Shown: piece after piece, positions 4,960 through 63,617 of the stretch
Layout: the number at the start of each line of letters is the position of its first letter
Numbering within the stretch: the stretch's first letter is position 1
Assembly (NCBI RefSeq): GCF_003234795.2
Contig: NZ_CP126268.1
Location: 248,001 to 312,000 of the forward strand
Length of the DNA stretch: 64,000 nucleotides
DNA from: Curtobacterium sp. MCLR17_032
GTDB taxonomy: Bacteria; Actinomycetota; Actinomycetes; Actinomycetales; Microbacteriaceae
Direction of reading: 5' to 3'
Position numbers and translations under genes: made by a program
Notes under the pieces: model-generated
Database searches by the model: none
What the model saw: the letters and a program-made list of their open reading frames with translations, nothing else
What the model was told of the DNA's origin: nothing

Positions 4960-4999
4960 GACGGGAGGCCCGTGGCTGCTCAGCCACGGGCCTCCCGTC
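4960..4999. terminator. Perfect 19-bp hairpin terminator built on GACGGGAGGC
   Basis: Arms 4960-4978 and 4981-4999 are perfectly complementary with a 2-base centre; each arm begins with GACGGGAGGC read inward. It sits between the convergent SDR and minus-strand gene at 5033, so it can end both transcripts. There is no U tract, as is common in high-GC actinobacteria. Confidence 0.85.
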
Positions 5000-5032
5000 A
5001 TGCGGTCGGACCAGCCGCGTGCCGGCGGACCG

Positions 5033-5353
5033 TCAGTGCGTGCCGCAGGTCCGCGCCATCGACTCGAGCAGCTCGCGCGCTGCGAGGGCCGCGGCCAGCT
5101 CGACCTCGACGGGGTTGATGCCGACGGCCTGCTCGAACTGCCGACGCCGGGCCTGCAGCGCGACCGGTACCTCGGGCCGCTGCGGCAGGACGGCGATCGC
5201 GGCGGCGGCGGCCTCGAACGCACCCTCCGGGCGGCCGAGGTGCTCCCACATCGTGCGGACGTCGTGCGCCACCTGCTCCGGGGTGCTCGCGAACTCGAAC
5301 CCGGCGGACGCCATGGTCGCCAAGCCCTGTGCGGTGGAGTCGTTCGGGGACAT
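5033..5353 (-). CDS. Hypothetical protein, 106 aa
   Basis: Starts MSPNDSTAQG and ends MARTCGTH. Soluble and mostly helical by composition: a run FEAAAAAIAVLPQ, then PVALQARRRQFEQAV and VELAAALAARELLE. I do not recognise the family. The ATG at 5353 is chosen as the first Met where the reading frame becomes protein-like; a GACGAT box 6 bases upstream could be a leaderless -10. The long upstream extension of the same frame is the shadow of the TetR gene on the other strand. Confidence 0.6.
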   Translation of the reverse strand: MSPNDSTAQGLATMASAGFEFASTPEQVAHDVRTMWEHLGRPEGAFEAAAAAIAVLPQRPEVPVALQARRRQFEQAVGINPVEVELAAALAARELLESMARTCGTH

Positions 5354-5434
5354 CCCGGCATCGTCACACACCCCGCCGCGGACACGCCCAGGCAGTGGCC
5401 GTCGGACGCCTCCGCTTGTCCCCCATGTTGCCGA

Positions 5435-5448
5435 CCCCCGGACCGGGG
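5435..5448. promoter_or_regulatory. Palindrome CCCCCGG-A-CCGGGG upstream of TetR
   Basis: Lies 110 bases before the TetR start. A nearly identical site, CCCCCGG-A-CCGGGGG, occurs at 19664-19678 before the lectin-peptidase gene. The shared centre and flanks suggest a protein-binding site rather than chance, but no regulator is assigned. Confidence 0.35.
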
Positions 5449-5557
5449 ATGCGCCGGACCCCCGATCTCCGCCAAGATCGACATGCGGACAGGACGTCCG
5501 CACCGCCTGGACGCGACGGCCACGACCTGACCGTGCGTCCCGGACACGGAGGGCACG

Positions 5558-6250: not shown

Positions 6251-6274
6251 CGGAGCGGCCTCCGCCGGGACTGT

Positions 6275-6706: not shown

Positions 6707-6724
6707 CCGGGCGCCGCGACCGGC

Positions 6725-8227
6725 TCACCAGCGCGGGACGCTGCCGTTGCCCGGGTCGTAGCCGGAGTCGCGGATGACCGGCAACGCGGTGGTGTCGCTG
6801 TGCACCGAGTGCACCTCGATCCGGCGCCCGCGACGCAGCGCACGCCGTGCCCCGGGGGTCGCGAAGAGCCCGCCGAGCACCAGTCCGGCCCCGATCGCGA
6901 GCGCCACGGTCACCGCCGACCCGAAGTCCAGCACCGAGCTCGACGACCCGCTCATCACGTTGAGCAGCGCGTTCGACACCGCGACACCGGGCAGCAGCGC
7001 CCCGCAGAACGCCGGCACCGCGATAGCCGAGACGGCCGTGCGCATCCGGACGGCCGCGTAGGTCGAGAGCACGCCGAGCAGCACCGCCGCCAGGAACGTC
7101 GCACCGAGCAGCGGCAGGCCGAACTCCTTGAGCTGCCAGAGCGCCGCCCCCGCCGCGACCGAGAACACCACCGCGACCGGGATCACCCGTGCGCTGGCCT
7201 GCTGCACGAAGCAGTTCGCCCCGGCCGACGCCACGGTCAGGGACAGCGACGCCCAGAGCGGCAGGGCCTGGGTGACGATGCCGGACGGCTCGACCTCGAG
7301 CCGGAGCCAGTGCGTCACGGCGATGCCCGCCGGCACCCCGACGACGATCGCCGCGATGAGCATGCCGATCGTGAACGCCCGGGCGACCGCCATCGCGCGG
7401 AACCCCGAGATCGCGTCCTGCGCCCACGTCACGAGTTGCACGTGCGGCAGCAGGAGCACCACGAGGGCCGCGACCATCGTCGCCGCGCCGGTCGGGGTGA
7501 GCACACCCGCCCAGATCGCGAGCGTGCCGATCACCGACGCCACCGCCCCCTGCGCGCCGGAGACGAAGAACTGCGGGTACCCGCGGCCGGTCAGCCACCG
7601 GCCGGAGACGATGATGCCGAGCATCAGGATGAACGCCCCGACGCCGGCCCGCCAACCACCACCGGCCTGCAGCGCGATCGAGGTCCCGAGCACCGACAAC
7701 CCGACGTCGGCGAGCCACATCGGCCACCGCGGCGGCATCCGGAGCACCGCCACGAGGGCGCTCACCGCGCTGGTCATGTCCCGGTCGTCGTGGATGACGT
7801 CGTCGACGATCTGGTTCGCCCACGTCAGCCGTCCGAGGTCGGCCCCGTCGGAGCGCGTGCTGCGCATCTTGACGAGCGGCGGGCCCTCGGTCGGCGAGTA
7901 CTGGATCGTCACCGAGCTGCCCGAGAAGTCCAGGTCGAGCGGTGCGAGGTTCCACTTCGTCGCCACCGCGATCACGGCGGTCTCGACGCTCCGGGTGTCG
8001 GCACCGGAGGCGAGCATCACCTCGGTCAGGTCGAGACAGAAGTCGACGATCTGCCGGGCCGAGTACTGCTCCCGCAGCGAGCGCGTGTCCGGCGTGACGT
8101 GCTCGTAGATCGTGCCGCGCAGTCGCGCGCGGACGTCCCGCATGTCGTGCTGGGCGACGCTCCGGGCCTTCGGGCGCGGACGGGGTGGACGGCCCGGCCG
8201 GGGGCCGGGAGGGAGCGGTTCGGCCAT
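6725..8227 (-). CDS. Threonine/serine exporter family (ThrE-like) membrane protein
   Basis: 500 residues. The first part (about 35-270) matches the ThrE N-terminal domain: SGADTRSVETAVIAVATKWN, then the LDFSGSSVTIQYSP region and several membrane segments. The second part repeats membrane segments, including a Gly-rich AGANCFVQQASAR turn, as in the C-terminal ThrE domain. In Corynebacterium ThrE exports threonine and serine in an energy-dependent way; the exact substrate here is inferred. Start ATG 8227 has CACAAT 6 bases upstream on the minus strand and no Shine-Dalgarno, so it looks leaderless. The N-terminal 25 residues are Pro/Arg-rich. Confidence 0.88.
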   Translation of the reverse strand: MAEPLPPGPRPGRPPRPRPKARSVAQHDMRDVRARLRGTIYEHVTPDTRSLREQYSARQIVDFCLDLTEVMLASGADTRSVETAVIAVATKWNLAPLDLDFSGSSVTIQYSPTEGPPLVKMRSTRSDGADLGRLTWANQIVDDVIHDDRDMTSAVSALVAVLRMPPRWPMWLADVGLSVLGTSIALQAGGGWRAGVGAFILMLGIIVSGRWLTGRGYPQFFVSGAQGAVASVIGTLAIWAGVLTPTGAATMVAALVVLLLPHVQLVTWAQDAISGFRAMAVARAFTIGMLIAAIVVGVPAGIAVTHWLRLEVEPSGIVTQALPLWASLSLTVASAGANCFVQQASARVIPVAVVFSVAAGAALWQLKEFGLPLLGATFLAAVLLGVLSTYAAVRMRTAVSAIAVPAFCGALLPGVAVSNALLNVMSGSSSSVLDFGSAVTVALAIGAGLVLGGLFATPGARRALRRGRRIEVHSVHSDTTALPVIRDSGYDPGNGSVPRW

Positions 8228-8281
8228 CGGACCATTGTGCCTGCCGTCCTCGTGCGCCGCCTGGTGCCGGGTGGGACGACG

Positions 8282-8322
8282 GACGGGAGGCTCCCCACCG
8301 GTCCGGTGCGGAGCCTCCCGTC
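8282..8322. terminator. Terminator hairpin with paired GACGGGAGGC
   Basis: Arms 8282-8294 and 8310-8322 are perfectly complementary; the loop carries CACCGG-T-CCGGTG, extending the stem. It follows the OsmC stop on the minus strand. The same build, with CACCGG-A-CCGGTG inside, recurs at 44278-44317. Confidence 0.85.
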
Positions 8323-8339
8323 AGTACGGTGCGCGCTGC

Positions 8340-8777
8340 TTACTGCTCGAACGTGGCGTGCAGTTCGATGTCGACGCCGGTGAGGGCCTTGCTGACCGGG
8401 CAGGTCGCCTTGGCCTCGTCGGCGGCCTTGAGGAAGGTCGCCTCGTCGATGCCGGTGACCTCGCCGTGCACGGTGAGGACGATGCCGGTGAGCTTGAAGC
8501 CGGCCGTGTCCGGGCCGAGCGAGACGTCGGCCTTGACGTCGAGGGACTCGACGGTGCCGCCGGCCTCGCCGAGGACGGCGGAGAACTGCATGGCGTAGCA
8601 GGCCGAGTGCGCTGCGGCGATGAGCTCTTCGGGGCTGGTGGTGCCGCCGGCCTCGTCAGCGGCGCGCTTCGGGAAGGACACGTCGTAGGTGCCGACCTTC
8701 GAGCTGGAGAGTTCGACCTGGCCGGAACCGTCGTTGAGGCCGCCGTTCCAGGCGGTGCGTGCGGTGCGCGTGGGCAT
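8340..8777 (-). CDS. OsmC family peroxiredoxin
   Basis: 145 residues, a normal OsmC length. OsmC proteins reduce organic hydroperoxides with two cysteines, both present: the buried Cys in IAAAHSACYAMQFS and the second in DEAKATCPVSKAL. The N-terminal RTARTAWNGGLNDGSG matches the OsmC (not Ohr) type, as does the TSPEEL motif before the first Cys. Strong AAAGGAG Shine-Dalgarno before ATG 8777. Monocistronic, ended by the hairpin at 8282. Cytoplasmic antioxidant role is inferred from family. Confidence 0.92.
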   Translation of the reverse strand: MPTRTARTAWNGGLNDGSGQVELSSSKVGTYDVSFPKRAADEAGGTTSPEELIAAAHSACYAMQFSAVLGEAGGTVESLDVKADVSLGPDTAGFKLTGIVLTVHGEVTGIDEATFLKAADEAKATCPVSKALTGVDIELHATFEQ

Positions 8778-11605: not shown

Positions 11606-12316
11606 TCACCGGGCGCGGTCCGGGGTCCGTGCCGCGTACCCGACGCGGCTCTGCTGGACGTGCGCTGCCATGCGCGCGACCGCCGTCTCGACGTCTCCCG
11701 CGTCGATCGCCGACAGGATCTGTCGGTGCTCGGGCCAGAGCCGCTTGCCGCGCGAGAAGGTGTCCATCGCGTACAGCCACTCGATCTTCCGCGAGAGCTG
11801 GCGGAGCAGCGTGGCGAGCGTGGTGCTGCCGGAGAGCTCGGCGACCAGGAAGTGGAAGCGGTCGTTGAGGTCGACGAGCTGCCCGAGGTCGTCGCGCTCC
11901 ACGGCTCGGTCCCCGGCGTCGAGGACCTCGCCGAGCTCCCGGCGCACCCGCCACCAGTCCGCCGGTGGGGTGTCGCCGTCGAACAGTGTCCTGGCACGGG
12001 TCGCGGCACGCCTGGCGGTGGCGACCTCGAGCGACTCGCGCACCGCGAACAGGTCGTCGGCCTCGTCGAAGGGGATCGCGGCGATGCGCGAGCCGACGTT
12101 CGGCTGCGACACGACGAAGCCCTCGCCCTCGAGCCCGCGGAGCGCCTCGCGCACGGGCACCCGGGAGACGCCGTAGCGCTCCGCGAGGAACGCCTCGGTC
12201 ACCCGGGTGCCGGGCAGCAGGTCGCCCGCGACGATGTCGCGGCGGATCGCGTCGAGGACACCGGCTCCGTTCAGCACGGGGCCAAGCGTCCCACAACCGG
12301 CCGGGACGCTCGTCAC
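11606..12316 (-). CDS. GntR family regulator with FCD ligand domain
   Basis: 236 residues. The winged helix is visible at about 20-80: IRRDIVAGDLLPGTRVTEAF, then LAERYGVSRVPVREALRGLE. The C-terminal FCD domain includes the metal-site pattern with DLNDRFHFLV and EHRQILSAIDAGD, whose Asp and His residues normally bind Zn or Ni. It is the last gene of the peptide-uptake operon; its GTG (12316) overlaps the ATPase stop as GTGA, so it is translationally coupled. An alternative GTG at 12277 would give 223 residues. It most likely controls its own operon through TTGYRYACAA-type palindromes at 19499 and 19529. Confidence 0.9.
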   Translation of the reverse strand: MTSVPAGCGTLGPVLNGAGVLDAIRRDIVAGDLLPGTRVTEAFLAERYGVSRVPVREALRGLEGEGFVVSQPNVGSRIAAIPFDEADDLFAVRESLEVATARRAATRARTLFDGDTPPADWWRVRRELGEVLDAGDRAVERDDLGQLVDLNDRFHFLVAELSGSTTLATLLRQLSRKIEWLYAMDTFSRGKRLWPEHRQILSAIDAGDVETAVARMAAHVQQSRVGYAARTPDRAR

Positions 12317-13986
12317 ACCGCGCTCTCCGCGAGGGACCGGCCCGGGATCGCGTCGAGCAGGTCCTTCGTGTACTGCTCCTGCGGGTCGTCGAACACCCGG
12401 GCGACCGAGCCCCGCTCGACGACCGCACCGCGCCGCATCACCACGACGTCGTCCGCGATCCGCCGGACCACCCCGAGGTCGTGCGTGATGAACAGGTAGC
12501 TCAACCCGAGTCGGTCCTGCAGGTCGTCGAGCAGGGCGAGGATCTGCTCCTGCACGAGCACGTCGAGCGCGGAGACCGCCTCGTCGAGGATGAGCAGGTC
12601 CGGCTCGAGCGCGAGCGCCCGGGCGATCGCGACACGCTGCCGCTGTCCGCCGGAGAGTTCGTTCGGCCGCAGCTGGGCGACGGCCCGGGGCAGGGCGACC
12701 TGGTCGAGCAGGGTCGCCACCCGCTCGGTGCGCGCGGCCCGGTCGCCGATGCCGAACACCCGGAGCGGTTCGTCGATCACCCGCTCGATGGTGGACGTCG
12801 GGTCGAGCGACCCGTACGGGTCCTGGAACACCGGCTGCACCCGTCGCCGGACGCCCCGCCGTTCCGCCCCGCGGGCACTGCCGATCGAGAGCCCGTCGAC
12901 CAGGGCGCTGCCGGACGTCGGCGCCTCGAGCCCGAGCACGATGCGCGCGACGGTCGTCTTCCCCGAGCCGGACTCCCCGACGACGGCGGTGGTGGTCCCG
13001 CGGCGGACCGCGAACGACACCCCGTCCGCCGCCCGGAGCGTGCCGGCACCACGACCACGGATCCGGTACTCCTTGACCAGGTCCGACACGACGAGGATCG
13101 GCTCACCGGTGACGGTCGGCTCGGGCGGCAGCCCGGACAGTGCCGGTGCGGCCGCGATGAGCCGCTTCGTGTACTCGTGCTGCGGGTTCCGCAGGATCTC
13201 GCCGGGCGCGCCCTGCTCGACGACCTCGCCGTCGAGCATGACGACCACCCGGTCGGTCCGGTCGGCCGCGACCCCGAGGTCGTGCGTGACGAACAGCAGC
13301 GTCGTGCCGTGCTGGTCCACGAGCGTCTGCAGGTGGTCGAGGATCTGCCGCTGCACGGTCACGTCGAGTGCGCTCGTCGGCTCGTCCGCGATGAGCAGCT
13401 CCGGCTGGCGGGCCAGCGCGATCGCGATGAGGATGCGCTGCCGCATGCCGCCGGAGAACTCGTGCGGGAACTGGTCCGCGCGCCGGCTCGCCTCCGGGAT
13501 CCCGGCCTCGGTCATCAGGGCGACCACCCGCTGGCGGATCGTGGCCCGCCCGCGCATCCCCCCGGCGCGCAGCGTGTCCGCGATCTGCGCCCCGACCCGC
13601 ATCGAGGGGTTCAGGTTCGTCGACGGGTCCTGCGGGACGAGCCCGATCCGGCCACCGCGGACGCGCCGCATCGCGGACTCGTCGGCCCCGGTCACGTCGA
13701 GGTCGCCGAGTCGGATCGACCCGCCCGTGACGTGTCCGGCACCCGGAAGCAGCCGCAGCACCGCCGCGATGAGCGTCGACTTGCCGGAACCGGACTGGCC
13801 GACGATCGCGACGCGCTCGCCGCGGCGGACGTCGAGGTCGACTCCGTGCAGCACCTCGGTACTGCCGAACGCGACCCGCAGGTCACGCACGGAGAGCAGG
13901 GGCTCGCCGGGGTCGGACGGGAGGCTCGGCTCGCGTCCGTCGGTCGTCGTCCGGTCGGTCATGGGTGCGTCAGCGTCCTGTGGCAT
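12313..13986 (-). CDS. Dipeptide/oligopeptide ABC transporter, fused double ATPase
   Basis: 557 residues carrying two complete ABC ATPase halves, equivalent to DppD plus DppF in one chain. Half 1: Walker A GQSGSGKST (about 63-71), signature FSGGMRQRI, Walker B LLIADEPTSALD. Half 2: GESGSGKTT, signature LSGGQRQRV, Walker B LLILDEAVSALD; here Ala replaces the usual Pro-Thr after DE. ATG 13986 has an AGAGGAG Shine-Dalgarno 8 bases away and overlaps the end of the gamma-glutamyltransferase gene by 17 bases. Energises the permease pair encoded upstream in the same operon. The N-terminal tail contains one GACGGGAGGC motif (13916-13925). Confidence 0.93.
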   Translation of the reverse strand: MPQDADAPMTDRTTTDGREPSLPSDPGEPLLSVRDLRVAFGSTEVLHGVDLDVRRGERVAIVGQSGSGKSTLIAAVLRLLPGAGHVTGGSIRLGDLDVTGADESAMRRVRGGRIGLVPQDPSTNLNPSMRVGAQIADTLRAGGMRGRATIRQRVVALMTEAGIPEASRRADQFPHEFSGGMRQRILIAIALARQPELLIADEPTSALDVTVQRQILDHLQTLVDQHGTTLLFVTHDLGVAADRTDRVVVMLDGEVVEQGAPGEILRNPQHEYTKRLIAAAPALSGLPPEPTVTGEPILVVSDLVKEYRIRGRGAGTLRAADGVSFAVRRGTTTAVVGESGSGKTTVARIVLGLEAPTSGSALVDGLSIGSARGAERRGVRRRVQPVFQDPYGSLDPTSTIERVIDEPLRVFGIGDRAARTERVATLLDQVALPRAVAQLRPNELSGGQRQRVAIARALALEPDLLILDEAVSALDVLVQEQILALLDDLQDRLGLSYLFITHDLGVVRRIADDVVVMRRGAVVERGSVARVFDDPQEQYTKDLLDAIPGRSLAESAV

Positions 13987-15937
13987 GTCCCTGGGCTCCT
14001 CTCGGGTTGGCGGCGGCGCCGAGGACGCCGGTGGCGGGGTCCCGCGTCACGCAGGACAGACGGCCGAGCGACCAGTCGCCGGCGCGGGTGACGACGTGCC
14101 CGAGGGCCTCGAGGCCGGCGATGACGTCGTCGCCGAGGCGGTCCTCGACCACCAGGCCACCGGGCGTCCAGGTCCGGGGCCAGAACGAGCCCGGGAAGGA
14201 CGTGGTGTGCAGCGCGGGAGCGTCGATGGCCTGCTGGGGGGTGTACCCGCCGACGATCGTCCGGAGCAGGAACAGCAGCTGCCACTGGTCCTGCTGGTCA
14301 CCGCCGGGGGAGCCGAGCGCCGTGACCGGCGCGCCGTCGCGGAGCACCAGGGTCGGCGTGAGGGTCGTCCGCGGGCGCTGGCCGGGGCGCAGCGTCGACG
14401 CGGTGCCGTCCTCGAGCCAGACCATCTGCAGGCGGGTGCCGAGGCAGAACCCGAGCTCCGGGATCGTCGGCGAGGACTGCAGCCAGCCGCCGGACGGAGT
14501 CGCGCTGACGATGTTGCCCCAGCGGTCGACGACGTCGATGTGGACCGTGTCGCCCCGGGTCTCGCCGGTCGCCATCACGATCGGCTCGCCGCGGTCCTCG
14601 GTCAGGGCGTCGTCCTCGGCGGGGGCCGCGACCGCGTTCCCACGGGCACCGGGCACGGTCGGTTCGCCGACACCGGCGACGGGTTCGCCCCTCGGTGTGT
14701 ACGTCTCGCGGAGTGGCGGGAGCGCCCCGGCGGCGACGGACACCGACCCCGGACGGAGCTCGTGCGAGGCATGCTCGCCGATGAGGGTGCGGCGCTCGTC
14801 CGAGTACGCGTCGGAGAGCAGCTCGGCCATCGGGACGTCGCCGTCGCCGTAGTACGCCTCGCGGTCGGCGAGGGCGAGCTTCTGCGCCTCGACGATCGTG
14901 TGCGCACCGGCGACGGTGGACGGGTCGAGCAGGGCGTCGTCGAGCGGGTCGAGCAGTCGCAGCGTCTGGAGCAGCGCCGGCCCCTGTCCCCACGGCCCGG
15001 TCTTCGCGATCGTGCAGCCGCGGAACTCGGCCGTCGTCGCCGGTTCGTACGACGCCCGGAACGCGGCGAGGTCGTCGGCGCGGATGACCCCGGCGTGGTC
15101 GGTGCCCGAGGCGTGACGGTGCGGGGCCCGCACGAAGCGGTCGATCGCCTCGGCGACGAACCCGGTCGCCCACGCCTCCCGGGCGGCGTCGATCCGGGCG
15201 ACGCGGCCCTCCGCTGCGGCCCCGTCGTGACCGGAGCCGGCGTCGACGAGCCGCTCGAGCACGGAAGCCCACGTCTCGTTCCGGACGACGTCCCCGGCGA
15301 CCGGCACCGTCCCCACGGGCTCGGCCGCCACGTCGCTCCGCAAGCTCCGCGACGCGTCGGAACCGGCCCGCGTGGGCCCACCTCCCGTCAGCCACAGAGC
15401 GGCGGAGGACGGCCAGTGGTCGCGGAACAGGCTCTCCACCGTCGCGATCGTCGCGGCCACGCGCGGCGCGATCGGGTGCCCGTCACGGGCGTAGCCGACG
15501 GCCGGCGCGAGGACGTCGGCGAGTTCCCACGTGCCGTGGTCGCGGAGCAGCAGGAGCCAGGCGTCGACGGCGCCCGGGACGGCCGCGGCGAGTGCCCCGG
15601 CGCCGGGGACCAGGTCGAGGCCCTCGGCGCGGAAGTGCTCCGGCGTCGCGCCGGCCGGAGCCGGACCCTGCCCCATGAGGACCCGGGGCGTCGGGTCGTC
15701 CGCGGTGGCGAAGATCCCGGTCATGTCGCCACCGGGGCCGTTCAGGTGCGGTTCCACGACGTGCAGGACGAACGCGCCGGCGACGGCGGCGTCGAAGGCG
15801 TTGCCGCCGCGCTCCAGGACGGACTGCGCGGTGGCGGTCGCGATCCAGTGCGTGGACGCGGCCATGCCGAACGTGCCCAGCAGGTCCGGCCGGGTGGTCT
15901 CGGCACTCGGTTCGACGAAGGCGGGGTTGGTGCTCAC
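13970..15937 (-). CDS. ggt: Gamma-glutamyltransferase family protein
   Basis: 655 residues. Gamma-glutamyltransferases hydrolyse gamma-glutamyl bonds, for instance in glutathione, after self-cleaving before a Thr. The likely processing Thr is in ETRGDTVHIDVVDRWGN near residue 463, matching the family T-x-H-x-x-V-x-D pattern; PSGGW and LGTR lie downstream. The N-terminus (MAASTHWIATATAQSVLERG, NAFDAAVAGAF) is typical of the large subunit. There is no signal peptide, which is unusual for this class and suggests cytoplasmic action on imported peptides. It sits inside a peptide ABC operon between the permease and ATPase genes. Confidence 0.9.
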   Translation of the reverse strand: MSTNPAFVEPSAETTRPDLLGTFGMAASTHWIATATAQSVLERGGNAFDAAVAGAFVLHVVEPHLNGPGGDMTGIFATADDPTPRVLMGQGPAPAGATPEHFRAEGLDLVPGAGALAAAVPGAVDAWLLLLRDHGTWELADVLAPAVGYARDGHPIAPRVAATIATVESLFRDHWPSSAALWLTGGGPTRAGSDASRSLRSDVAAEPVGTVPVAGDVVRNETWASVLERLVDAGSGHDGAAAEGRVARIDAAREAWATGFVAEAIDRFVRAPHRHASGTDHAGVIRADDLAAFRASYEPATTAEFRGCTIAKTGPWGQGPALLQTLRLLDPLDDALLDPSTVAGAHTIVEAQKLALADREAYYGDGDVPMAELLSDAYSDERRTLIGEHASHELRPGSVSVAAGALPPLRETYTPRGEPVAGVGEPTVPGARGNAVAAPAEDDALTEDRGEPIVMATGETRGDTVHIDVVDRWGNIVSATPSGGWLQSSPTIPELGFCLGTRLQMVWLEDGTASTLRPGQRPRTTLTPTLVLRDGAPVTALGSPGGDQQDQWQLLFLLRTIVGGYTPQQAIDAPALHTTSFPGSFWPRTWTPGGLVVEDRLGDDVIAGLEALGHVVTRAGDWSLGRLSCVTRDPATGVLGAAANPRGAQGHATGR

Positions 15938-15941
15938 GGTG

Positions 15942-22559: not shown

Positions 22560-22748
22560 GCGCACCCCGAGGCGTCCGCTCCGTCGGCGTGTCCGTTCCC
22601 CTGCGGCGGCGTGTCCGGCGCGTTCGCTGCCCTCTCGCAGCGCTGAGCGACCCACGCTGGGAAGTCCGCACGAGGCGGAGGCGTACCGATGGGACGACGC
22701 GTGCCGGGCCTCCCGTCCGGCCGCGACCGCGACGAGAGGAGCGCACGC

Positions 22749-37009: not shown

Positions 37010-39181
37010 ATGAGCCGGCCGAAGCCCGAGCAGCACGCACCCGACGTCACCCTGGGCGCGGCACCGCCGCTCGCTCCCGGCGCCACGCACCCCGCCGCCG
37101 TCCGACACGGCGTCAGCCGCCGGACGGTGCTGCTCGGCGGTGCGGCCGCCATCGCCGCGGGTGTCGCCGCCGGGTCACTGACGGGAGGCCCGTCCTCCGA
37201 CACCGCGCAGGCCGCGGCTCCGCGACACGGTCGGCACCGGTCGATCAAGGACGTCCAGCACGTCGTCGTGCTCATGCAGGAGAACCGATCGTTCGACCAC
37301 TACTACGGCACCTTCCCCGGCGTCCGCGGCTTCGGCGACAAGCAGGCCGTCGAACTGCCCGGCGGCACCGACGTCTTCGCCCAGCCCGACCCCACCCGCA
37401 CCGACGGCGGCGTCCTGCTGCCGTTCCCGCTCGACTCCGCGAACCACGACGCCCAGAACGCCGGCGGCCTCGACCACTCGTGGGGCGGCGGACACACCGC
37501 GTGGAACGGCGGCGCGTGGAACCGCTGGGTCACCGCGAAGAGCGGGCAGACGATGGGCTACTTCACCGGCGAGGACCTGCCGTTCCACCACGCGCTGGCC
37601 TCGGCGTTCACCGTCGCCGACCACTACCACGCGTCGCTCATCGGACCGACGACCCCGAACCGGCTGTTCCAGTGGTCCGGCACGATCAACCCGCAGGGCG
37701 GACTCGGCGGCCCGGCGACCGACAACCCCGACGACTACCTGCCCGTCTACCACTGGACGACCTACCCGGAGCGGCTGCAGCAGGCCGGGGTGACGTGGAA
37801 GACCTACGCGAACGCCGAGGTCGGCGACGACGGCACCCACCCCTACGTCGGCGACTACGGCGACAACCCGCTCTGGCTGTTCCAGCAGTACCACGACGCC
37901 CTGGCCTCGAAGGACCCCGCGGTGCACGACCTGGCCGACCGCGGTGGGCTGCACGACGGGTGGCTGCCGGACTCAGGCAAGGGCCTGGACGTGCAGCACC
38001 TGCTCAGCGACTTCGGTCGGGACGCCGCCGCGAACACGCTGCCCGCCGTCTCGTTCGTCGTCGCGCCCTACGGCTGGAGCGAACACCCCGCCGCGAGCCC
38101 CGACTACGGCGCCCACTACACGAACGCGGTGATCCAGGCGCTGATGAGCAACCCGGACACCTGGGCCAGCACCGTCCTGCTCATCAACTACGACGAGAAC
38201 GACGGCTACTTCGACCACGTGCTGCCGCCGCTCGCCGAACCCGGGACCCCCGACGAGTACGTCGCGGGGCTGCCGGTCGGCTACGGCACCCGCGTCCCGC
38301 TCACCGTCGTCTCGCCGTGGTCCCGCGGCGGATGGGTCGACTCGCAGGTGTTCGACCACACCTCGGTCATCCGCTTCCTCGAGACCTGGACCGGCGTCCA
38401 CGAGCCGAACATCTCCGCCTGGCGCCGGACCATCTCCGGCGACCTGACCTCGTGCTTCGACTTCGCGAACCCGGACTTCTCGATCCCCACCCCGGCCGAG
38501 GTCCCGCCGCTCAGCGAGACGCAGAAGCTCGTCGCCGCGGCCGACGCCGACCGTGGCAAGCCGAAGGTCACCGAGCCCGCCGTCGGAGCCCAGCGTCGGC
38601 CGACGCAGGAGCCCGGCACCTCGACGCGGCACCGTTCCCTGCCCTACCGGCAGTCCGCGGACGTCTCCGTCGACCGGACCCGTGGCGTGGTGACCCTGAC
38701 GATGCGGAACGACGGACGGCAGGGTGTCTCGCACCAGGTCTTCCCGAACACGGGGCTGCCGTTCGTGTCCAGCCCGCACACCGTCGCCGCCCGTTCGACC
38801 GCTGCCTACGAGTGGGACACCGCAGCGCACGACGGCGCCTACGACTTCAGCGTCTACGGCCCGGACCGCTTCCTCCGCCGGTTCGCCGGGAAGGTCGTCG
38901 CCGGCTCCGACCGGGACCTGGCACTGCCGGAGGTCACGGCGACGCCACGCACCGGTCGCGACGCCGGACTGCTCCTGCGACTCGGCAACGGCGGGCGGAA
39001 GCCGGTGCGGTTCACCCTCACCGCGAACGACTTCGTGGAGCACCACGAGACCGTCGTGCTCGCCGGACGGCACTCGGACGCGGTGCGGTGGCCCCTCGAC
39101 GCGTGGGGCTACTACGACGTCGTGGTGACGGCCGACGACGGCACCGGGTTCCGGTACCGGTTCGCGGGGCGGGTGGAGTGA
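37010..39181 (+). CDS. Phosphocholine-specific phospholipase C, Tat-exported
   Basis: 723 residues, the normal length. Twin-arginine signal SRRTVLLGGAAAIAAGVAAG at about 32-51. The phosphoesterase domain has VVVLMQENRSFDHYYGTFPG, where Asn and Asp sit at the active site, plus YDENDGYFDHV and TSVIRFLETW. Two C-terminal repeats of the Phospholip_C_C domain cover about 530-720. Hydrolyses phosphatidylcholine or sphingomyelin outside the cell, giving phosphate or choline and a possible host-membrane effect. GAAGGAG Shine-Dalgarno before ATG 37010. A GACGGGAGGC motif lies in the signal region. Confidence 0.94.
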   Translation: MSRPKPEQHAPDVTLGAAPPLAPGATHPAAVRHGVSRRTVLLGGAAAIAAGVAAGSLTGGPSSDTAQAAAPRHGRHRSIKDVQHVVVLMQENRSFDHYYGTFPGVRGFGDKQAVELPGGTDVFAQPDPTRTDGGVLLPFPLDSANHDAQNAGGLDHSWGGGHTAWNGGAWNRWVTAKSGQTMGYFTGEDLPFHHALASAFTVADHYHASLIGPTTPNRLFQWSGTINPQGGLGGPATDNPDDYLPVYHWTTYPERLQQAGVTWKTYANAEVGDDGTHPYVGDYGDNPLWLFQQYHDALASKDPAVHDLADRGGLHDGWLPDSGKGLDVQHLLSDFGRDAAANTLPAVSFVVAPYGWSEHPAASPDYGAHYTNAVIQALMSNPDTWASTVLLINYDENDGYFDHVLPPLAEPGTPDEYVAGLPVGYGTRVPLTVVSPWSRGGWVDSQVFDHTSVIRFLETWTGVHEPNISAWRRTISGDLTSCFDFANPDFSIPTPAEVPPLSETQKLVAAADADRGKPKVTEPAVGAQRRPTQEPGTSTRHRSLPYRQSADVSVDRTRGVVTLTMRNDGRQGVSHQVFPNTGLPFVSSPHTVAARSTAAYEWDTAAHDGAYDFSVYGPDRFLRRFAGKVVAGSDRDLALPEVTATPRTGRDAGLLLRLGNGGRKPVRFTLTANDFVEHHETVVLAGRHSDAVRWPLDAWGYYDVVVTADDGTGFRYRFAGRVE

Positions 39182-40092: not shown

Positions 40093-41796
40093 ATGTCCAT
40101 CGACCCCGCGGAACGGTCCGGCTCGCGCCCCACGCTCGAGGCCATCGCGCGCCGTGCGTCGGTGTCCCCGGCCACCGTGTCGAAGGTCCTGAACGGCCGC
40201 CCCGGCGTCTCCGGACCCACCCGGGAGCGCGTCGAACACCTGCTCGCCGCCTCCGGTTACGCCCAGCGCGACACCCCGCCCGGCCCCGGCTCGCTCGTCG
40301 AACTCGTCGTCGAGGACCTGTCCAGCGAATGGTCGATCGAGATCGTCCGCGGGGTCGAGTCCGTCGCCCGCGAGCACGGGTACGCCCTGTCGCTCTCCGC
40401 CCTCGGCCCGGACCACGCCGTCGGCGAGGACTGGATCACCGGCGTCCTGCACCGCCGACCCGCGGCGATCGTGCTGCAGTTCTCCGCGCTCACCGCGGGC
40501 CGTCGCGACCAGCTCCGTGCCCGCGGCATCCCGTTCACGGTCGTCGACCCGGTCGGCGACCCGCCCGCCGACGTCCCCGTCGTGGGCGCGACGAACACCG
40601 CCGGGGGAGCGGCCGCGACCCAGCACCTGCTGGACCTCGGCCACACCCGCATCGCGGCGATCGCCGGGCCGCTCGACATGGCCTGCGCGGTCGACCGGCT
40701 GGCCGGGCACCGTGCGGCGCTCGCCGCGGCCGGACTGGAGGCCCGCCACGCCGCCGCCACGCCCGTCCCCTCCGATGCGCCCGTCCCGTCCGGTGCGCCC
40801 GATCCGTCCGTCGTCGTCGCGCGGTTCAGCCGGGAGGACGGCGAACGCGCGGCCCGCGAGCTGCTGGCCGCCGACCCTCGGCCGACGGCGATCGTCACCG
40901 GCAACGACCTGCAGGCCCTCGGCGTGCTCGATGCCGCACGGTCGCTCGGGCTCCGGGTGCCGGAGGACCTGTCCGTCGTCGGCTTCGACGACGTCGCTCC
41001 CGCACGGTGGGCACGGCCCGCACTGACGACGATCCGGCAGCCCCTGCAGGAGATGGCGGAGCGGGCGACCCGGATGGCGCTGCGCCAGCACGCCGGCGTG
41101 GGTGCGGACGAGCACGCGGGTGACGCGCCGGGCGAGCCGGTCCGGGTCGAGCTCGCCACGACGCTCGTGGTCCGCGACTCGACGGCCGCACCCGCTGTCG
41201 GGACGGGGGACGAGCCTCCCGTCCGTGACCACGTGCTGGCCGACGAGCGCCGTGACGTGACCACCGTCGAGATCATCGGCGGGCCCGAGGCGCTGTGTGT
41301 CGGCCTGCACGAGTACGACCGGGCCTGGGCGGTGACGTTCACGGAGCACCGGGATCGGATCCTCCGCGCGGTCGGCGCGCTCGACGTGCGGGTCGAGCAC
41401 ATCGGGTCGACCTCGGTGCCGGGGCTCGCCGCCAAGCCGATCGTCGACCTGGTCGTCGTCGTGCCGGACGTCACGGACGAGTCCGCGTACCTCGAACCGC
41501 TGCTGGGCGCCGGGTACGAGCTGCGGGTCCGGGAACCCGGCCACCGGCTGGTGCGGACGCCGGCGCGGGACGTCCACGTGCACGTCTACGAACGTGGCGC
41601 GACCGCGGTCGAGGACTACCTGCTGCTGCGTGACCGGTTGCGGAGCGACCCGGACGACCGGGCGCTGTACGAGCAGACGAAGCGGGCGCTGCTCGGCGGG
41701 ACATGGGACGACATGAACGACTACGCGGACGCGAAGACCGACGTGATCCGTGCCGTGATGGGGCGTGCACGGGCAGCGGCTGCGTTACCCGGGTAA
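40093..41796 (+). CDS. LacI family regulator fused to a GrpB domain
   Basis: 567 residues in one unbroken frame. LacI part: helix-turn-helix ATVSKVLNGRPGVSGPTRER at about 29-48, then a sugar-binding domain to about 365 (motifs DLSSEWSIEIVRGVESVA, GDPPADVPVVGATNTAGG, VVGFDDVAPARW). After a linker, residues 392-560 are GrpB (UPF0157), with EHIGSTSVPGLAAKPIVDLV at 436 on, the nucleotidyltransferase-fold signature including the GS and paired Asp positions. Such a fusion is not a standard architecture. A GCCTCCCGTC motif with partial inverted partner lies in the linker (41201-41224). GATACT 6 bases before ATG 40093 suggests a leaderless start. Confidence 0.88.
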   Translation: MSIDPAERSGSRPTLEAIARRASVSPATVSKVLNGRPGVSGPTRERVEHLLAASGYAQRDTPPGPGSLVELVVEDLSSEWSIEIVRGVESVAREHGYALSLSALGPDHAVGEDWITGVLHRRPAAIVLQFSALTAGRRDQLRARGIPFTVVDPVGDPPADVPVVGATNTAGGAAATQHLLDLGHTRIAAIAGPLDMACAVDRLAGHRAALAAAGLEARHAAATPVPSDAPVPSGAPDPSVVVARFSREDGERAARELLAADPRPTAIVTGNDLQALGVLDAARSLGLRVPEDLSVVGFDDVAPARWARPALTTIRQPLQEMAERATRMALRQHAGVGADEHAGDAPGEPVRVELATTLVVRDSTAAPAVGTGDEPPVRDHVLADERRDVTTVEIIGGPEALCVGLHEYDRAWAVTFTEHRDRILRAVGALDVRVEHIGSTSVPGLAAKPIVDLVVVVPDVTDESAYLEPLLGAGYELRVREPGHRLVRTPARDVHVHVYERGATAVEDYLLLRDRLRSDPDDRALYEQTKRALLGGTWDDMNDYADAKTDVIRAVMGRARAAAALPG

Positions 41797-44276: not shown

Positions 44277-44277
44277 C

Positions 44278-44317
44278 GACGGGAGGCGGCCCACCGGACC
44301 GGTGACCGCCTCCCGTC
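44278..44317. terminator. Terminator hairpin with paired GACGGGAGGC
   Basis: Arms 44278-44289 and 44306-44317 are perfectly complementary, with CACCGG-A-CCGGTG in the loop region. Between convergent LacI and aquaporin genes. Same build as 8282-8322. Confidence 0.85.
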
Positions 44318-44338
44318 ATCCGCATGCGGACCGAGCCG

Positions 44339-49207: not shown

Positions 49208-50401
49208 ATGACGGATGACCGGTTGCGGGTCGCGATGGTGGGCCACGGCTTCATGGGAGCCGCCCACTCACAGGCCTGGCGGGTCGCGCCGCGGTTCTTC
49301 CCGCTCGACCGCGAACCCGAGATGACCGTCGTCGTCGGACGCGACCCCGAGCGCACCGAGGCCGCCCGCGCCCGCTTCGGGTGGCAGCGTGCCGAGACCG
49401 ACTGGCGCCGCGTCGTCGAGGACCCGGACATCGACGTCGTCGACGTCTGCTCGCCCGGCTCCTCGCACGTCGAGGTCGCGATCGCGGCCCTGGAGGCCGG
49501 CAAACACGTCCTCTGCGAGAAGCCGCTCGCCAACACCGTCGCCGAGGCGGAGGCCATGGTCGCCGCCGCCGAGTCGGCCGCCGCGCGCGGGATCCGCTCG
49601 ATGGTCGGCTTCAGCTACCGGCGCGTTCCGGCCCTGGCGTTCGCCCGCCAGCTCGTGCAGGCCGGCCGGATCGGCGAGGTCCGCCACGCCCGCGCGCTCT
49701 ACCTGCAGGACTGGCTCACCGACGCCGACGGTCCGATGACGTGGCGGTTGGACGCCTCGCTCGCCGGGTCCGGCTCACTCGGTGACATCGGCGCGCACGC
49801 CGTGGACCTGGTCGAACACATCACCGGCGCCACGCTCGCCTCCGTCAGCGGCACGCTCGAGACGTTCGTGCACGAGCGCCCGCTGCTCGCCGACGGCGTC
49901 GGCCTGTCCGGCACCGCCTCGGACCAGCGCGGACAGGTCACCGTGGACGACGCCGCCTGGTTCACGGGTCGACTGACGGGAGGCGCGGCTCGGCCGGGCG
50001 GGACCGTCGCCACGTTCGAGGCCACCCGGTACGCGACCGGGCGGAAGAACGGTCTGACCATCGAGATCAGCGGGTCCACCGGGGCGATCGCCTTCGACCT
50101 CGAGGCGATGAACGAACTCCGCGTGTACGACACGACCGCGCCGGCGGGGGAGCAGGGGTTCCGCCGGGTCCTCGTCACCGAGCCGGAGCACCCGTACATG
50201 GCGAACTGGTGGCCGACCGGGCACCCGATCGGCTACGAGCACACGTTCGTGCACGAGGTCGTCGACTTCGTCACCGCGATCACCGGCGGGCAGCAGCCCG
50301 AGCCGTCCTTCGCCGTGGGGTTGCACGTGCAGGACGTCCTGGACGCCGTACAGCGGAGCGCGGCCGACGGCAGCGCCTGGACCCCGATCCCCACCCGATG
50401 A
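49208..50401 (+). CDS. Gfo/Idh/MocA family oxidoreductase (first)
   Basis: 397 residues. Rossmann motif VAMVGHGFMGAAHSQAW and the conserved GKHVLCEKPLANTVAEAEAM with the EKP Lys. Substrate region SLGDIGAHAVDLVEHITG carries the Asp-His pair of the family. Heads an operon oxidoreductase-ThuA-oxidoreductase that resembles ThuAB-type disaccharide or sugar-acid modules. GAGGGAG Shine-Dalgarno, ATG 49208. Contains one GACGGGAGGC motif (49975-49984). Confidence 0.93.
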   Translation: MTDDRLRVAMVGHGFMGAAHSQAWRVAPRFFPLDREPEMTVVVGRDPERTEAARARFGWQRAETDWRRVVEDPDIDVVDVCSPGSSHVEVAIAALEAGKHVLCEKPLANTVAEAEAMVAAAESAAARGIRSMVGFSYRRVPALAFARQLVQAGRIGEVRHARALYLQDWLTDADGPMTWRLDASLAGSGSLGDIGAHAVDLVEHITGATLASVSGTLETFVHERPLLADGVGLSGTASDQRGQVTVDDAAWFTGRLTGGAARPGGTVATFEATRYATGRKNGLTIEISGSTGAIAFDLEAMNELRVYDTTAPAGEQGFRRVLVTEPEHPYMANWWPTGHPIGYEHTFVHEVVDFVTAITGGQQPEPSFAVGLHVQDVLDAVQRSAADGSAWTPIPTR

Positions 50402-58120: not shown

Positions 58121-59098
58121 ATGGCGTCCAGTCCTCCGATCGCGCCGCTCCGCGGCCGCGTCCCCCGCCCCCGCCGCCGCGACGACGGCGCGATCATGCC
58201 CGCCTCCGGCCGCGGCAGCTACTGGTTCTACCTGCTCCCCGGCTTCGTCCTGCTGGCCGCGATCATCCTCGTGCCGCTCGGCTGGAACGTGTACCTGTCG
58301 TTCACGAACTACCGCGGGATCCTGCCACCGCAGTTCACCGGGCTGGACAACTGGCGCCGGCTGATGGCGGACGGGCAGTTCTGGATCTCGTTCCGGAACA
58401 GCATCGTGATGATCCTGGCGATGGTGATCGTGCCGACCAGCCTGGGCCTCGTCCTGGCCGCCGCGCTGTTCGACGTGATCGGCAAGAAGTTCGGCGGCAA
58501 GCTCGCCAGCTTCCTCCGCGCCACGTACTACCTGCCGCAGATCCTGCCCGCGGTGATCGCCGCGATCGTGATCGGGTGGATCCTCCGCCCGGAGAACGGT
58601 GCGCTCAACGCGGTGCTCGGCGCGGTCGGGCTCGACGGTCTGCAGCACAACTGGCTCGGCAGCCCGGACACCGCCCTGCTCTCCGTCGCGGTCGTGCTCG
58701 TCTGGGTGCAGATCGGCTACCCGGTCGTGGTGTTCATGGCGGCCCTGCAGCGCGTCGACCCGGAGCTGTACGAAGCGGCCGAGCTCGACGGCGCGAACTG
58801 GTTCCAGCGCTTCCGTTCCATCACGGTGCACATCATCCGACCCGAGATCTTCGTCGTCGTGCTCACGTGCACGATCGCCGCGCTCAAGGTGTTCGGCCCC
58901 GTGTACGCCCTCACCGGCGGCGGCCCCGGCAACGCGACCATCGTGCCGAGCTACTACTCGTACAGCCAGTTCTTCCAGGCGCAGCAGGTCGGGTACGGCG
59001 CGACCATCGCCACCGCGCTGACCGTCGTGATCGTCATCGTCGCCATCGGCTTCATCGCCGCCCAGACCCGGGCCGAACGCAAGGAGGAGGCACGATGA
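58121..59098 (+). CDS. ABC sugar transporter permease, MalF/UgpA type
   Basis: 325 residues. Six helices: the first FYLLPGFVLLAAIILVPLGW, last ATALTVVIVIVAIGFIAAQ. The EAA loop reads YEAAELDGANWFQRFRSITV. The Arg-rich head (RVPRPRRRDDG) is cytoplasmic. ATGA overlap with the second permease. Together they form the channel of the xyloside importer; a separate shared ATPase (MsmK-like) must be encoded elsewhere, as none is in this operon. Confidence 0.94.
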   Translation: MASSPPIAPLRGRVPRPRRRDDGAIMPASGRGSYWFYLLPGFVLLAAIILVPLGWNVYLSFTNYRGILPPQFTGLDNWRRLMADGQFWISFRNSIVMILAMVIVPTSLGLVLAAALFDVIGKKFGGKLASFLRATYYLPQILPAVIAAIVIGWILRPENGALNAVLGAVGLDGLQHNWLGSPDTALLSVAVVLVWVQIGYPVVVFMAALQRVDPELYEAAELDGANWFQRFRSITVHIIRPEIFVVVLTCTIAALKVFGPVYALTGGGPGNATIVPSYYSYSQFFQAQQVGYGATIATALTVVIVIVAIGFIAAQTRAERKEEAR

Positions 59099-60018
59099 CC
59101 GTGTCCGCACCCGACACCAGGGCGACCGTCACGGCGGACGCGGGGCGGGCCTCCCGTCCGACGGCGAAGCCGCGCAAGCGCCCCGGCGAGGGAGGGCGCA
59201 AGCGGCCGTCCGACTGGGTCGTGCTCGCCGGCGGGATCGTCATCGCGGTGCTCATCGCCGCGCCGTTCCTGCTCATCCTGCTCAACTCGTTCAAGACGCC
59301 CGCGGACTACGCGGCCGGCGGCCCGCTCGCCTGGCCGACGCAGCTGTCGTTCGACGGCATCACCACGTTCTGGAACCGGGTCGACTTCCCGCTGAAGCTC
59401 TGGAACAGCGTGTTCATCAGCGGGATGGTGGCGCTGCTCGCGGTGCTCATCTCGATCCTCAACGCCTTCGCGATCGGCATCGGCCGGGTCCGCTACCGCA
59501 CCTGGATCGTGGTGCTGTTCATGCTCGCGAACATGCTGCCGCAGGAGGTCCTGCTCTACCCGCTCTACATGATGTTCAAGGGCATCGGGCTGTACGACAA
59601 CGTGTGGAGCGTGATCATCGTCTTCACGGTGATCCAGTCCGCGTTCGGCACCTACTTGCTGTCGAGCGTCTACGGCACCTTCCCGAAGGAGATCCTGGAG
59701 GCCGCCGCCCTCGACGGCGCCGGACGCTGGCGCGTGCTCTGGCGGGTCATCGTCCCGATCAGCCGGCCGACCCTGTCGGTCCTGCTCATCTTCTTCTTCA
59801 TCTGGACGTGGAACGAGTTCCTCATCCCGCTGACCTTCCTGGTCAGCAACGACAACCAGACGGTCCCCGTCGCGATCTCCCTGCTGCAGGGCGACCGGCT
59901 GATGGACGTCACCACCACGAGCGCGTCGGCCCTGCTCGGCCTCATCCCGACGCTCGTGTTCTTCCTCATCTTCCAGCGCACCCTCGCGCGCGGCATCACG
60001 GCAGGAGCGGTCAAGTAA
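59095..60018 (+). CDS. ABC sugar transporter permease, MalG/UgpE type
   Basis: 307 residues. Six helices; EAA loop ILEAAALDGAGRWRVLWRVI. N-terminal 40 residues are basic and contain a GCCTCCCGTC motif as ASRP (59149-59158). Ends RGITAGAVK, the normal MalG-type end. TAATG overlap with the alpha-xylosidase gene. Pairs with the preceding permease. Confidence 0.95.
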   Translation: MTVSAPDTRATVTADAGRASRPTAKPRKRPGEGGRKRPSDWVVLAGGIVIAVLIAAPFLLILLNSFKTPADYAAGGPLAWPTQLSFDGITTFWNRVDFPLKLWNSVFISGMVALLAVLISILNAFAIGIGRVRYRTWIVVLFMLANMLPQEVLLYPLYMMFKGIGLYDNVWSVIIVFTVIQSAFGTYLLSSVYGTFPKEILEAAALDGAGRWRVLWRVIVPISRPTLSVLLIFFFIWTWNEFLIPLTFLVSNDNQTVPVAISLLQGDRLMDVTTTSASALLGLIPTLVFFLIFQRTLARGITAGAVK

Positions 60019-62285: not shown

Positions 62286-62298
62286 ACCCCGTTCGCCC

Positions 62299-62358
62299 GT
62301 TCGCGCTGAGCGACAGTCCTCGCGGCCTGGACCACGAGCGCTGTCGCTCAGCGCGAAC
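62299..62358. repeat. Palindrome, copy 4 of the GCGCTGAGCGACA family
   Basis: Arms 62299-62316 and 62341-62358 (GTTCGCGCTGAGCGACAG) are perfectly complementary, 24-base centre. Follows the alpha-xylosidase stop; probable operon terminator ahead of the ROK gene. Confidence 0.75.
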
Positions 62359-62429
62359 CTCGCGGACGGGCCGCGCCACCCGCCAGCGCGGGCCGCACTA
62401 CGCTGGCGGGACGGACGATCGGAGCGGAC

Positions 62430-63617
62430 ATGTCGGAGGCGAGCACTGCCTCCCGTCCGGTGCGCACCACGGACGTCGTCCGCCGCCGCAACCTGGCCCG
62501 GGTCCTGCGCCTCGTCCACGAGCGCGGGCCGATGCCCCGCTCGGCGCTCACCCGTGAGACCGGCCTGAACCGCTCGACGGTCGCCGCTCTGGTGGGGGAG
62601 CTCGTCGACCTCGGCCTCGTCGTCGAGGGGGACGCCCCACCCGCGACCGGCGTCGGCCGTCCGAGCGCCACCGTGTCCGCGTCCGCCCAGGTCGTCGCAC
62701 TCGGCATCGTGCCCGAGATCGACGCCGTGACCCTGGCGGTCATCGGCCTCGACGGCACCGAACACGAACGCCGGACCGTCCGCACCACCTCGGTCTCGAC
62801 GCCCGGCGAGGCCCTCGCCATCGCCACCGACCTCGTCGCCGCGGCCACCGATCAGCAGCGGGACGCGGGCCGTCGGGTCGTCGGCATCGCGGTGTCCGTC
62901 CCCGGGATCGTCCGCGTCGGCGACGGCGTCGTCCGGTACGCCCCGCACCTGGCCTGGCGCGACGAGGCCTTCGCCGCACCGCTCGCCGACCGCACCGGCC
63001 TGCCGGTCCGCGCCGCGAACGACGCGAACCTCGGCGTCACGGCCGAGTTCCTCTACGGCGCCGGCCGCGGCGCCACCGACGTCGTCTACGTCAACGGCGG
63101 CGCGAGCGGCATCGGTGGCGGCATCATCACGGGCGGGCGGCCCCTCGCCGGAGCTGCCGGGTACGCGGGGGAGCTCGGCCACACCTTCGTCGCCGCGAAC
63201 GGCATCCGCTGCCACTGCGGTGCCGTCGGGTGCCTGGAGACCGAAGCCTCACAGGCCGCACTGCTCGACGCGGCGGGGCTCGGGATCGACGAGGCCGACC
63301 GGCTCGGCGACGTCCTGGCCGACGGGCCCGCACCGGCCCTCGCCGCGGTCGTCGACCGGCAGGTCACCGCGCTCGCCGTCGCCATCCGCAACGTCGTGCA
63401 CACCGTGAACCCGGACGTCGTCGTCCTGGGCGGGTTCCTCGGCACGCTCCTCCGGCACGTCGGGACCCGGCTCGAGGACGCGGTCCGCGCGCAGACGATG
63501 ACGGCGATGGGCGAGGACCTGCGGATCGTGCCGGCGGAACTCGTCGGCAGCGTGCTGTTCCGCGGTGCGGCCGAGCTGGCGTTCGCATCGGTGCTGGCCG
63601 ACCCCACGGCGGGCTGA
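62430..63617 (+). CDS. ROK family regulator (XylR/NagC type)
   Basis: 395 residues. N-terminal winged helix RRRNLARVLRLVHERGPMPR then SALTRETGLNRSTVAALVGE; ROK domain from about 85 with GRPSATVS, IGGGIITGGRPLAGAAGYAG then ELGHTFV, and the zinc motif CHCGAVGCLETEAS. ROK motif ligands are sugars such as xylose. Start ATG 62430 has a weak GGAGCGG Shine-Dalgarno. Likely reader of ATTTGT-N11-ACAAAT sites at xylA and the LacI promoter. A GCCTCCCGTC motif lies at codons 7-10. Confidence 0.93.
   Translation: MSEASTASRPVRTTDVVRRRNLARVLRLVHERGPMPRSALTRETGLNRSTVAALVGELVDLGLVVEGDAPPATGVGRPSATVSASAQVVALGIVPEIDAVTLAVIGLDGTEHERRTVRTTSVSTPGEALAIATDLVAAATDQQRDAGRRVVGIAVSVPGIVRVGDGVVRYAPHLAWRDEAFAAPLADRTGLPVRAANDANLGVTAEFLYGAGRGATDVVYVNGGASGIGGGIITGGRPLAGAAGYAGELGHTFVAANGIRCHCGAVGCLETEASQAALLDAAGLGIDEADRLGDVLADGPAPALAAVVDRQVTALAVAIRNVVHTVNPDVVVLGGFLGTLLRHVGTRLEDAVRAQTMTAMGEDLRIVPAELVGSVLFRGAAELAFASVLADPTAG

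Follow-up and report, generated by a model that had tools for sequence, protein, structure and literature searches.

A dispersed 10-mer with inverted pairs and conserved flanks as the candidate core of a DNA uptake sequence in Curtobacterium

The 10-mer GACGGGAGGC is probably the core of a Curtobacterium DNA uptake sequence with clade-level dialects, a reading which is based on sequence patterns and to which we assign a probability of about 0.6. The window in which the word was noticed is the whole stretch of 64 kb under study, and corresponds to positions 248001-312000 of the genome record. The single-contig genome of 3,710,209 bases (3.71 Mb) contains 604 copies, 310 forward and 294 reverse, i.e., approximately one per 6 kb, versus only 16 copies of the reversed word, which was taken as control. 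The anatomy of the sites was studied in a sample of 864 kb, comprising the window plus another 40 stretches, each 20 kb long; the second batch of sampled stretches was unevenly spaced, and some of them lie close to known genome hits. The sample as a whole holds 134 copies, where 141 are predicted from the genome count. The earlier note, which proposed an uptake or recombination signal, had named a count near the Markov expectation as an outcome that would speak against it; the count observed in the 864-kb sample was 134, and the expectation from an order-4 model is 5.5. Copies were distributed across the sampled chromosome and were not confined to a single region. The word was absent from the three stretches of the sample in which GC falls below 0.66, where about ten copies would be expected at the mean density; these stretches may be recently acquired DNA, in which an uptake sequence would be rare.

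A recount on either strand recovered all 13 copies that had been reported for the window. Twelve of them were at the right coordinates, and the one placed at 37190 was wrong by ten, its true site being 37180-37189. The earlier note had estimated by hand less than one copy per window; dinucleotide shuffles gave a mean of 0.97 and reached 13 copies in none of 100 cases. The three inverted pairs described there, 4960/4990, 8282/8313 and 44278/44308, were found past the 3' ends of called genes, and all three are strong predicted hairpins folding at -35 to -50 kcal/mol. The first is a 40-bp hairpin at 4960..4999, flanked by convergent genes which end at 4931 (+) and 5033 (-), with a fold of -49.7 kcal/mol for 4950-5005. 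The second, a 41-bp hairpin at 8282..8322, is located 3' of the minus-strand gene 8340-8777 and folds at -41.0 kcal/mol (8272-8330). The third, 40 bp at 44278..44317, is again flanked by convergent genes and folds at -35.1 kcal/mol (44268-44322); both of its GACGGGAGGC copies are unchanged in G019, the closest relative found. The remaining copies in the window are single. Translation of the called genes gave the same peptides as had been read before: SLPS for the plus-strand copy 13916..13925, close to the N terminus of the minus-strand gene 12313-13986; LTGG for the plus-strand copies 37180..37189, within the plus-strand gene 37010-39181, and 49975..49984, within a dehydrogenase-like gene (49208-50401); EPPV for the minus-strand copy 41214..41223, within the plus-strand gene 40093-41796 and unchanged in G019; and ASRP for the minus-strand copies 59149..59158 and 62448..62457, each close to the N terminus of a plus-strand gene (59095-60018 and 62430-63617, respectively). 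The single copy 22708..22717 (minus strand) lies between gene calls, 31 bp 5' of the called start of a plus-strand gene at 22749, and becomes genic if an upstream ATG at 22689 is the true start. An open reading frame at 12590-16003 (+), overlying two minus-strand genes, is probably antisense. Of its best hits, the first belongs to Microbacteriaceae and the next three to Curtobacterium, and the genome is taken to be of that genus.

Copies were considered paired when a reverse-complement partner with at most one mismatch was found no more than 60 bp away. By this definition the 134 copies of the sample divide into 88 paired and 46 single ones; of the former, 82 fall between called genes and 6 within genes, and nearly all pairs are located past gene ends. 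The spacing within pairs is narrow, 73 of the 88 paired copies having their partner at an offset of 30 or 31 bp. Between convergent genes we found 45 of the 82 intergenic paired copies. Divergent gaps, which make up 120 of the 499 gaps, held none of the 78 intergenic paired copies flanked by a called gene on either side; for singles the corresponding placement was 3 of 20. Exact pairs number 162 genome-wide and take up 324 of the 604 copies. No T-run was observed 3' of the sampled hairpins examined, and these hairpins, together with the 46 of 134 copies that are single, do not match a set consisting of intrinsic terminators only. In some of the exact pairs among the sampled hairpins the inner arms are mismatched, yet both 10-mers are intact, which points to a constraint on the DNA. 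A blastn search with a 42-nt hairpin matched three plasmids and no phage.

Within called genes of the 864-kb sample there are 26 of the 46 single copies, a number that depends on gene calls from a home-made script with a coding fraction of 0.81, so that some of the "intergenic" singles may sit in missed genes. The coding DNA contains in total 32 copies (26 single, 6 paired), whereas 60 shuffles which preserve both protein and codons averaged 4.2 and never exceeded 10; the observed copies occupy several reading phases. Both results uphold the claim of the earlier note that the constraint is on the DNA. Terminators alone, which it had named as the other outcome that would speak against the signal, are ruled out as the source of the enrichment by the coding-DNA singles, as coding copies exceed the shuffles, and by a word from genus g26, treated below, which is unpaired. 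Relative to the gene, single genic copies are oriented opposite in 20 cases and in the same direction in 6; this bias was rejected as a signal, since synonymous shuffles give a like ratio (3.25 to 0.93), and it is attributed to codon use. The conserved site is longer than the 10-mer. Singles and pairs have in common C at -2, G at -1, C at +11, G at +12 and C at +16, and singles are additionally raised for T at +20 and C at +21, so that the extended site of singles reads CG-GACGGGAGGC-N-CG-NNN-C-NNN-TC. As these flank bases are fixed outside the 10-mer, the unit is a site that spans about 24 bp and is asymmetric. The fixed flanks of singles are bases that no hairpin requires.

Conservation was assessed against G019, with 93% identity across 187 kb aligned. 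Exact copies were found at 19 of the 21 alignable sites (12 of 12 paired, 7 of 9 single), and the background for random exact 10-mers was 55% within genes and 61% in intergenic DNA; alignable copies are thus better conserved than background. The other 113 of our 134 copies could not be aligned: 109 were outside the alignment, three had one flank aligned, and one, a paired copy, had both flanks aligned. Seen from the G019 side, 36 of 58 copies were outside the alignment, one was at its edge and 21 were aligned, 19 of the latter being identical in our genome. There were four aligned differences between the two genomes, going in both directions; three of these are one substitution each, and the fourth combines a gap with a mismatch. 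The copy at 49975 is retained in five relatives of 90-95% identity and absent from six of about 80%. Comparison with orthologues lacking the motif, as suggested in the earlier note, showed that four of these six distant relatives encode the same LTGG with third-position, synonymous changes only, the other two having LSGG and LGGG.

Counts of the word were 147-574 in 35 of 35 congeners and 43-627 in a further six of six, and all 41 congeners counted exceeded the reversed control, which never went above 33. In 23 genomes from other families of the order, 3-28 copies of GACGGGAGGC were found. The next highest counts in other genera of the family were 96, 67 and 42, all from genus g76. Across the genus exact pairs numbered 0-202, with 65 of 66 genomes having some and G221 none. 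One congener, G353, has 11 pairs only, and in 200 kb of its DNA GCCGGGAGGC occurred 28 times vs 2.3 expected, and GACGGGAGGC 10 times vs 1.6. G353 uses the variant dialect GCCGGGAGGC, which is a minority form in our own genome (62 vs 9). Inverted pairs of the shorter word GGAGGC were in excess in all seven genomes drawn from the own genus (96-327 vs 18-45 in the reversed control) and, as pairs cored by the same word, in all six members drawn from genus g56 (174-214 vs 31-69), with a lesser excess in some g76 and g84 genomes. The sister genus g76 gave a weak GGAGGC-centred signal, marginal in the scan of coding 9-mers described below.

A different word was found in genus g26, which was sampled as a pilus-bearing genus. 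Its top word is GGCGCAGGA with G or T as the next base and then C, at sight unrelated to GACGGGAGGC. Counts of GGGCGCAGGA in the six members drawn were 715, 424, 212, 184, 121 and 48, with reversed controls of 9-31, and outside g26 (299 family genomes) the maximum was 50, with a control of 41. In the coding DNA of one member, G145, GGCGCAGGA occurred 38 times against a mean of 7.0 in synonymous shuffles, and none of the 67 copies of GCGCAGGA, the core of the g26 word, had an exact inverted partner no more than 60 bp away in this genome. G142, from genus g105, had 57 copies of CGGATGCC vs 13.5; both G142 and G145 were picked as PilM-positive, and words found there are no measure of an association between word and pilus. 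Clade-specific words were thus seen in G353 (GCCGGGAGGC), g26 (GGGCGCAGGA) and G142 (CGGATGCC). We infer that the dialect words may be aligned on GGA[GT][GC]C.

All coding 9-mers were also scanned against synonymous shuffles, each genome being represented by 120-224 kb. The lists of their own genomes were topped by words of g26, with z up to 14.3, and by words of g105, with z up to 10.9. The 9-mers derived from GACGGGAGGC were not among the top words in our own genome or in G353, and we have counted this absence against the uptake reading. Unrelated words reached z of 7.6-7.9 in these two genomes, so values near 8 carry little meaning. In g76 the best word was GGAGGGGCG (8.5), followed by GGAGGCGC words, in G113, and TGGAGGCCG (8.2) in G236. 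A Rhodococcus megaplasmid (150 kb), used as control, peaked at z 6.5; the number of words tested there was smaller (1,166), as was the called coding fraction (0.66).

The com and pil genes that the earlier note proposed to look for are encoded in the genome, as far as can be predicted. A type IVa pilus cluster at approximately 3384955-3397615 has the order PilO, PilN, PilM, prepilin peptidase (PilD), a large protein, two minor pilins, PilA, PilC, PilT and PilB, where PilN was assigned by position only and the large protein has a weak GspK match, under its cut-off. ComEA, with HHH and SLBB domains, adjoins ComEC at approximately 1528779-1532020. Within the genus ComEC was found in 64 and the pilin signature in 65 of 66 genomes. 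The draft of one congener, G359, gave neither a pilin match nor a PilB-type match and has kept 77 exact pairs; this signal without a detectable pilus speaks against the uptake reading, and may be due to recent loss or to an assembly gap. Type IVa pili are widespread in the family: PilM was found in 145 of 299 family genomes and in 51 of 85 genera, including all members of g1 (7/7), g26 (6/6), g56 (6/6) and g76 (5/5), and 4 of 5 of g105. A plasmid collection searched with DNA of the PilA-PilC region gave short matches only, some of them annotated as pilin or pseudopilin. The ComP receptor is a pilin with a positive head. No clearly positive head was found in the four pilins (net charge 0 to +1), whose heads are near neutral, and no candidate receptor emerged among them, which counts against the uptake reading. 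Between species the pilins are 33-82% identical and PilB/PilC 78-96%; PilN and PilO vary about as much as the pilins, and the divergence of the latter is therefore unspecific.

The features of an uptake signal that can be computed fit the proposal of the earlier note, namely occurrence on both strands, pairs together with singles, constraint on the DNA, dialects, and pilus and Com genes; uptake itself would be the step from pattern to function, and here we infer. An uptake sequence would account for the dispersal on both strands, the singles and pairs, the DNA constraint, the fixed flanks, the dialects, the gaps in DNA of odd composition, and the machinery. In the mechanism which we propose, a surface or pilus-associated protein would bind the site on free DNA, and self DNA would be preferentially taken up as a result. 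Recombination of the taken-up fragments into the chromosome would then spread and restore the site (molecular drive). Inverted pairs may build up 3' of genes because they double as useful hairpins.

The best rival is that GACGGGAGGC is bound by a nucleoid protein or one that organises the chromosome, comparable to Noc, SlmA or MatP, whose sites would be paired at gene ends. We regard this as unlikely, albeit worth keeping in mind: such a protein could have a long asymmetric site under DNA-level constraint both in genes and between them, and clade-specific words could arise by co-evolution with the binding protein. It fits less well with pairs at a fixed offset of 30-31 bp past gene ends, absent from divergent gaps (0/78), and with copies that spread over the sampled chromosome instead of one region. 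The enriched close variants, within the genome and between species, suit the drift of an uptake motif at least equally.

Less probable still is the view that the word marks terminator hairpins, or mobile palindromes resembling REP elements, which form a family and have left the singles as relics. The 88 paired copies out of 134 and the strong hairpins past gene ends are what such a family would give, and the one paired copy left unaligned between G019-aligned flanks, with three more having one flank aligned, would allow gain or loss of whole units. However, the four aligned changes relative to G019 are three single substitutions and one gap with a mismatch, and singles alone (46) exceed approximately eightfold what the Markov model predicts for singles and pairs together (5.5). 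Singles in coding DNA also exceed codon constraint, and divergent gaps hold singles (3/20) but never pairs (0/78). Both 10-mers are retained where inner arms mismatch, the g26 word is unpaired, and no T-run lies downstream of the hairpins.

A Chi-like recombination-stimulating site appears quite improbable, although a dispersed, conserved and clade-specific word at about one per 6 kb would suit it. Known Chi sites are unlike inverted pairs with a footprint of about 24 bp. The strand bias relative to oriC/dif, which the earlier note had asked about, was calculated by placing the origin where the record starts and the terminus on the opposite side; 22 of the 46 singles in the 864-kb sample fell on one replication strand, i.e., there was no bias, and the overall counts were 310 vs 294. 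The Chi-like or segregation motif that the note had offered as an alternative is disfavoured by this absence of replication polarity. That codon bias or composition in a GC-rich genome produced the word as a by-product has next to no probability left, since for all the extreme base composition (70-72% GC) this is refuted by the Markov (5.5 vs 134), reversed-word (16 vs 604) and synonymous-shuffle (4.2 vs 32) counts, and the motif can use rare codons, GGA being 6% of Gly and CCT 1.2% of Pro.

Returning to the uptake sequence, a broader claim can be made for the family, which we consider close to evenly balanced with a slight lean in its favour. Microbacteriaceae with type IVa pili may carry uptake dialects (GACGGGAGGC, GCCGGGAGGC, GGCGCAGGA[GT]C and CGGATGCC) that share a GGA[GT][GC]C-like core, would limit exchange between genera, and would be independent of those in Neisseriaceae and Pasteurellaceae, amounting to sequence-specific uptake in monoderm Actinomycetota. 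A sequence-based preference for self DNA is known from the relatives of Neisseria and Haemophilus, all of them diderms. If the claim is true, a case in a monoderm phylum would show that an outer membrane is no requirement for self-recognition by a DNA tag, and there would be a further origin on which to test why tags evolve, by drive or by selection for kin DNA. It would also predict the gene-exchange partners among Microbacteriaceae, and an added tag could serve as a handle for transforming bacteria in which engineering is difficult. Among the open-access literature matches listed, none dealt with an uptake sequence in Actinomycetota or with GACGGGAGGC as a motif. Uptake is described as sequence-independent in almost all competent species besides Neisseria and Haemophilus, according to an extract of PMC12040237, so that sequence-specific uptake elsewhere is seen as an outlier, a point against the present reading.

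Several known systems can be compared with the Curtobacterium motif. Chi sites and REP elements are likewise short, repeated and dispersed, but the motif is without replication polarity, has singles in coding DNA, and no mobile unit was seen. Micrococcus luteus, another member of Actinomycetota, uses Flp/Tad pili, ComEA and ComEC in transformation, as stated in an extract of PMC6370729. Curtobacterium is also an actinobacterium with ComEA and ComEC; it has type IVa pilus genes and the motif, whereas M. luteus has Tad/Flp pili and the extract makes no mention of an uptake sequence. For the DNA uptake sequences (DUS) of Neisseriaceae, an extract of PMC3630211 describes dialects with a common core, inverted pairs tied to terminators, and, for two of the dialects, genome counts of 2,426 and 5,918. 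As far as this extract goes, the likeness of the DUS/ComP system to the present one consists of many copies, intragenic singles together with terminator-linked pairs, and clade dialects with a short core, and type IV pilus genes are present here too, in addition to ComEA and ComEC. The differences are that Curtobacterium is a monoderm actinobacterium in which no ComP-like electropositive pilin was found, and that its site is a different one, longer, GC-rich, of lower density and known from sequence alone. The uptake signal sequence (USS) of Pasteurellaceae is a long asymmetric site with a core and fixed flanks, the latter being A/T-rich stretches, and occurs as dispersed singles and inverted pairs. 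The Curtobacterium site also consists of a core and fixed flanks and is found as singles and pairs, but its flanks are fixed G/C positions, and it belongs to another phylum.

The motif was absent from the low-GC stretches L084, L087 and L097, and in the low-GC stretch at about 706000-808000 of the genome's own contig (G000:C1) no forward copy lay between positions 706247 and 808619 among the matches listed. These motif-free stretches are possibly acquired islands. A tandem array of the 7-base unit AGAGCCC was observed in L097 at 6943-7160 (reverse-strand coordinates), with 32 overlapping 13-mer matches. Within the window, two genes on the - strand are overlapped in antisense by an open frame of 1137 codons at 12590-16003 on the + strand. 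This frame, which is unlikely to be a real gene, was the query behind the homologue list used to assign the window to Curtobacterium.

Copies of the motif were also found on plasmids. A Curtobacterium citreum plasmid carried one, at 6502, and the Microbacterium sediminis plasmid NZ_CP038257.1 carried one complete Curtobacterium-type pair, at 15002 and 15032. Catabolic genes were noted as well on the latter plasmid, which comes from a genus other than Curtobacterium. The congener G359 retained 77 motif pairs, while neither pilin nor PilB-type matches were detectable in its draft assembly, which is possibly incomplete; if the draft is complete, this strain represents a natural experiment for signal decay.

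Elsewhere in Microbacteriaceae, inverted pairs with a GGAGGC core amounted to 2.5-6 times the reversed control in genus g56 (G093, G168, G225, G276, G318, and G356), and GGAGGC-cored pairs reached approximately 2 to 2.6 times the control in g84 (G187, G288, and G329). Coding DNA of G142 from genus g105 (stretches L242-L248) contained an excess of words centred on CGGATGC, e.g., CGGATGCC with 57 occurrences against 13.5 expected. In genus g26 a word unlike the Curtobacterium motif, GGGCGCAGGA, was enriched in all six genomes drawn, i.e., G145 and five others, with 48-715 copies. In G145 it is unpaired, and its excess there goes beyond codon constraint. The g26 word is a candidate for a second uptake-like dialect in the family.
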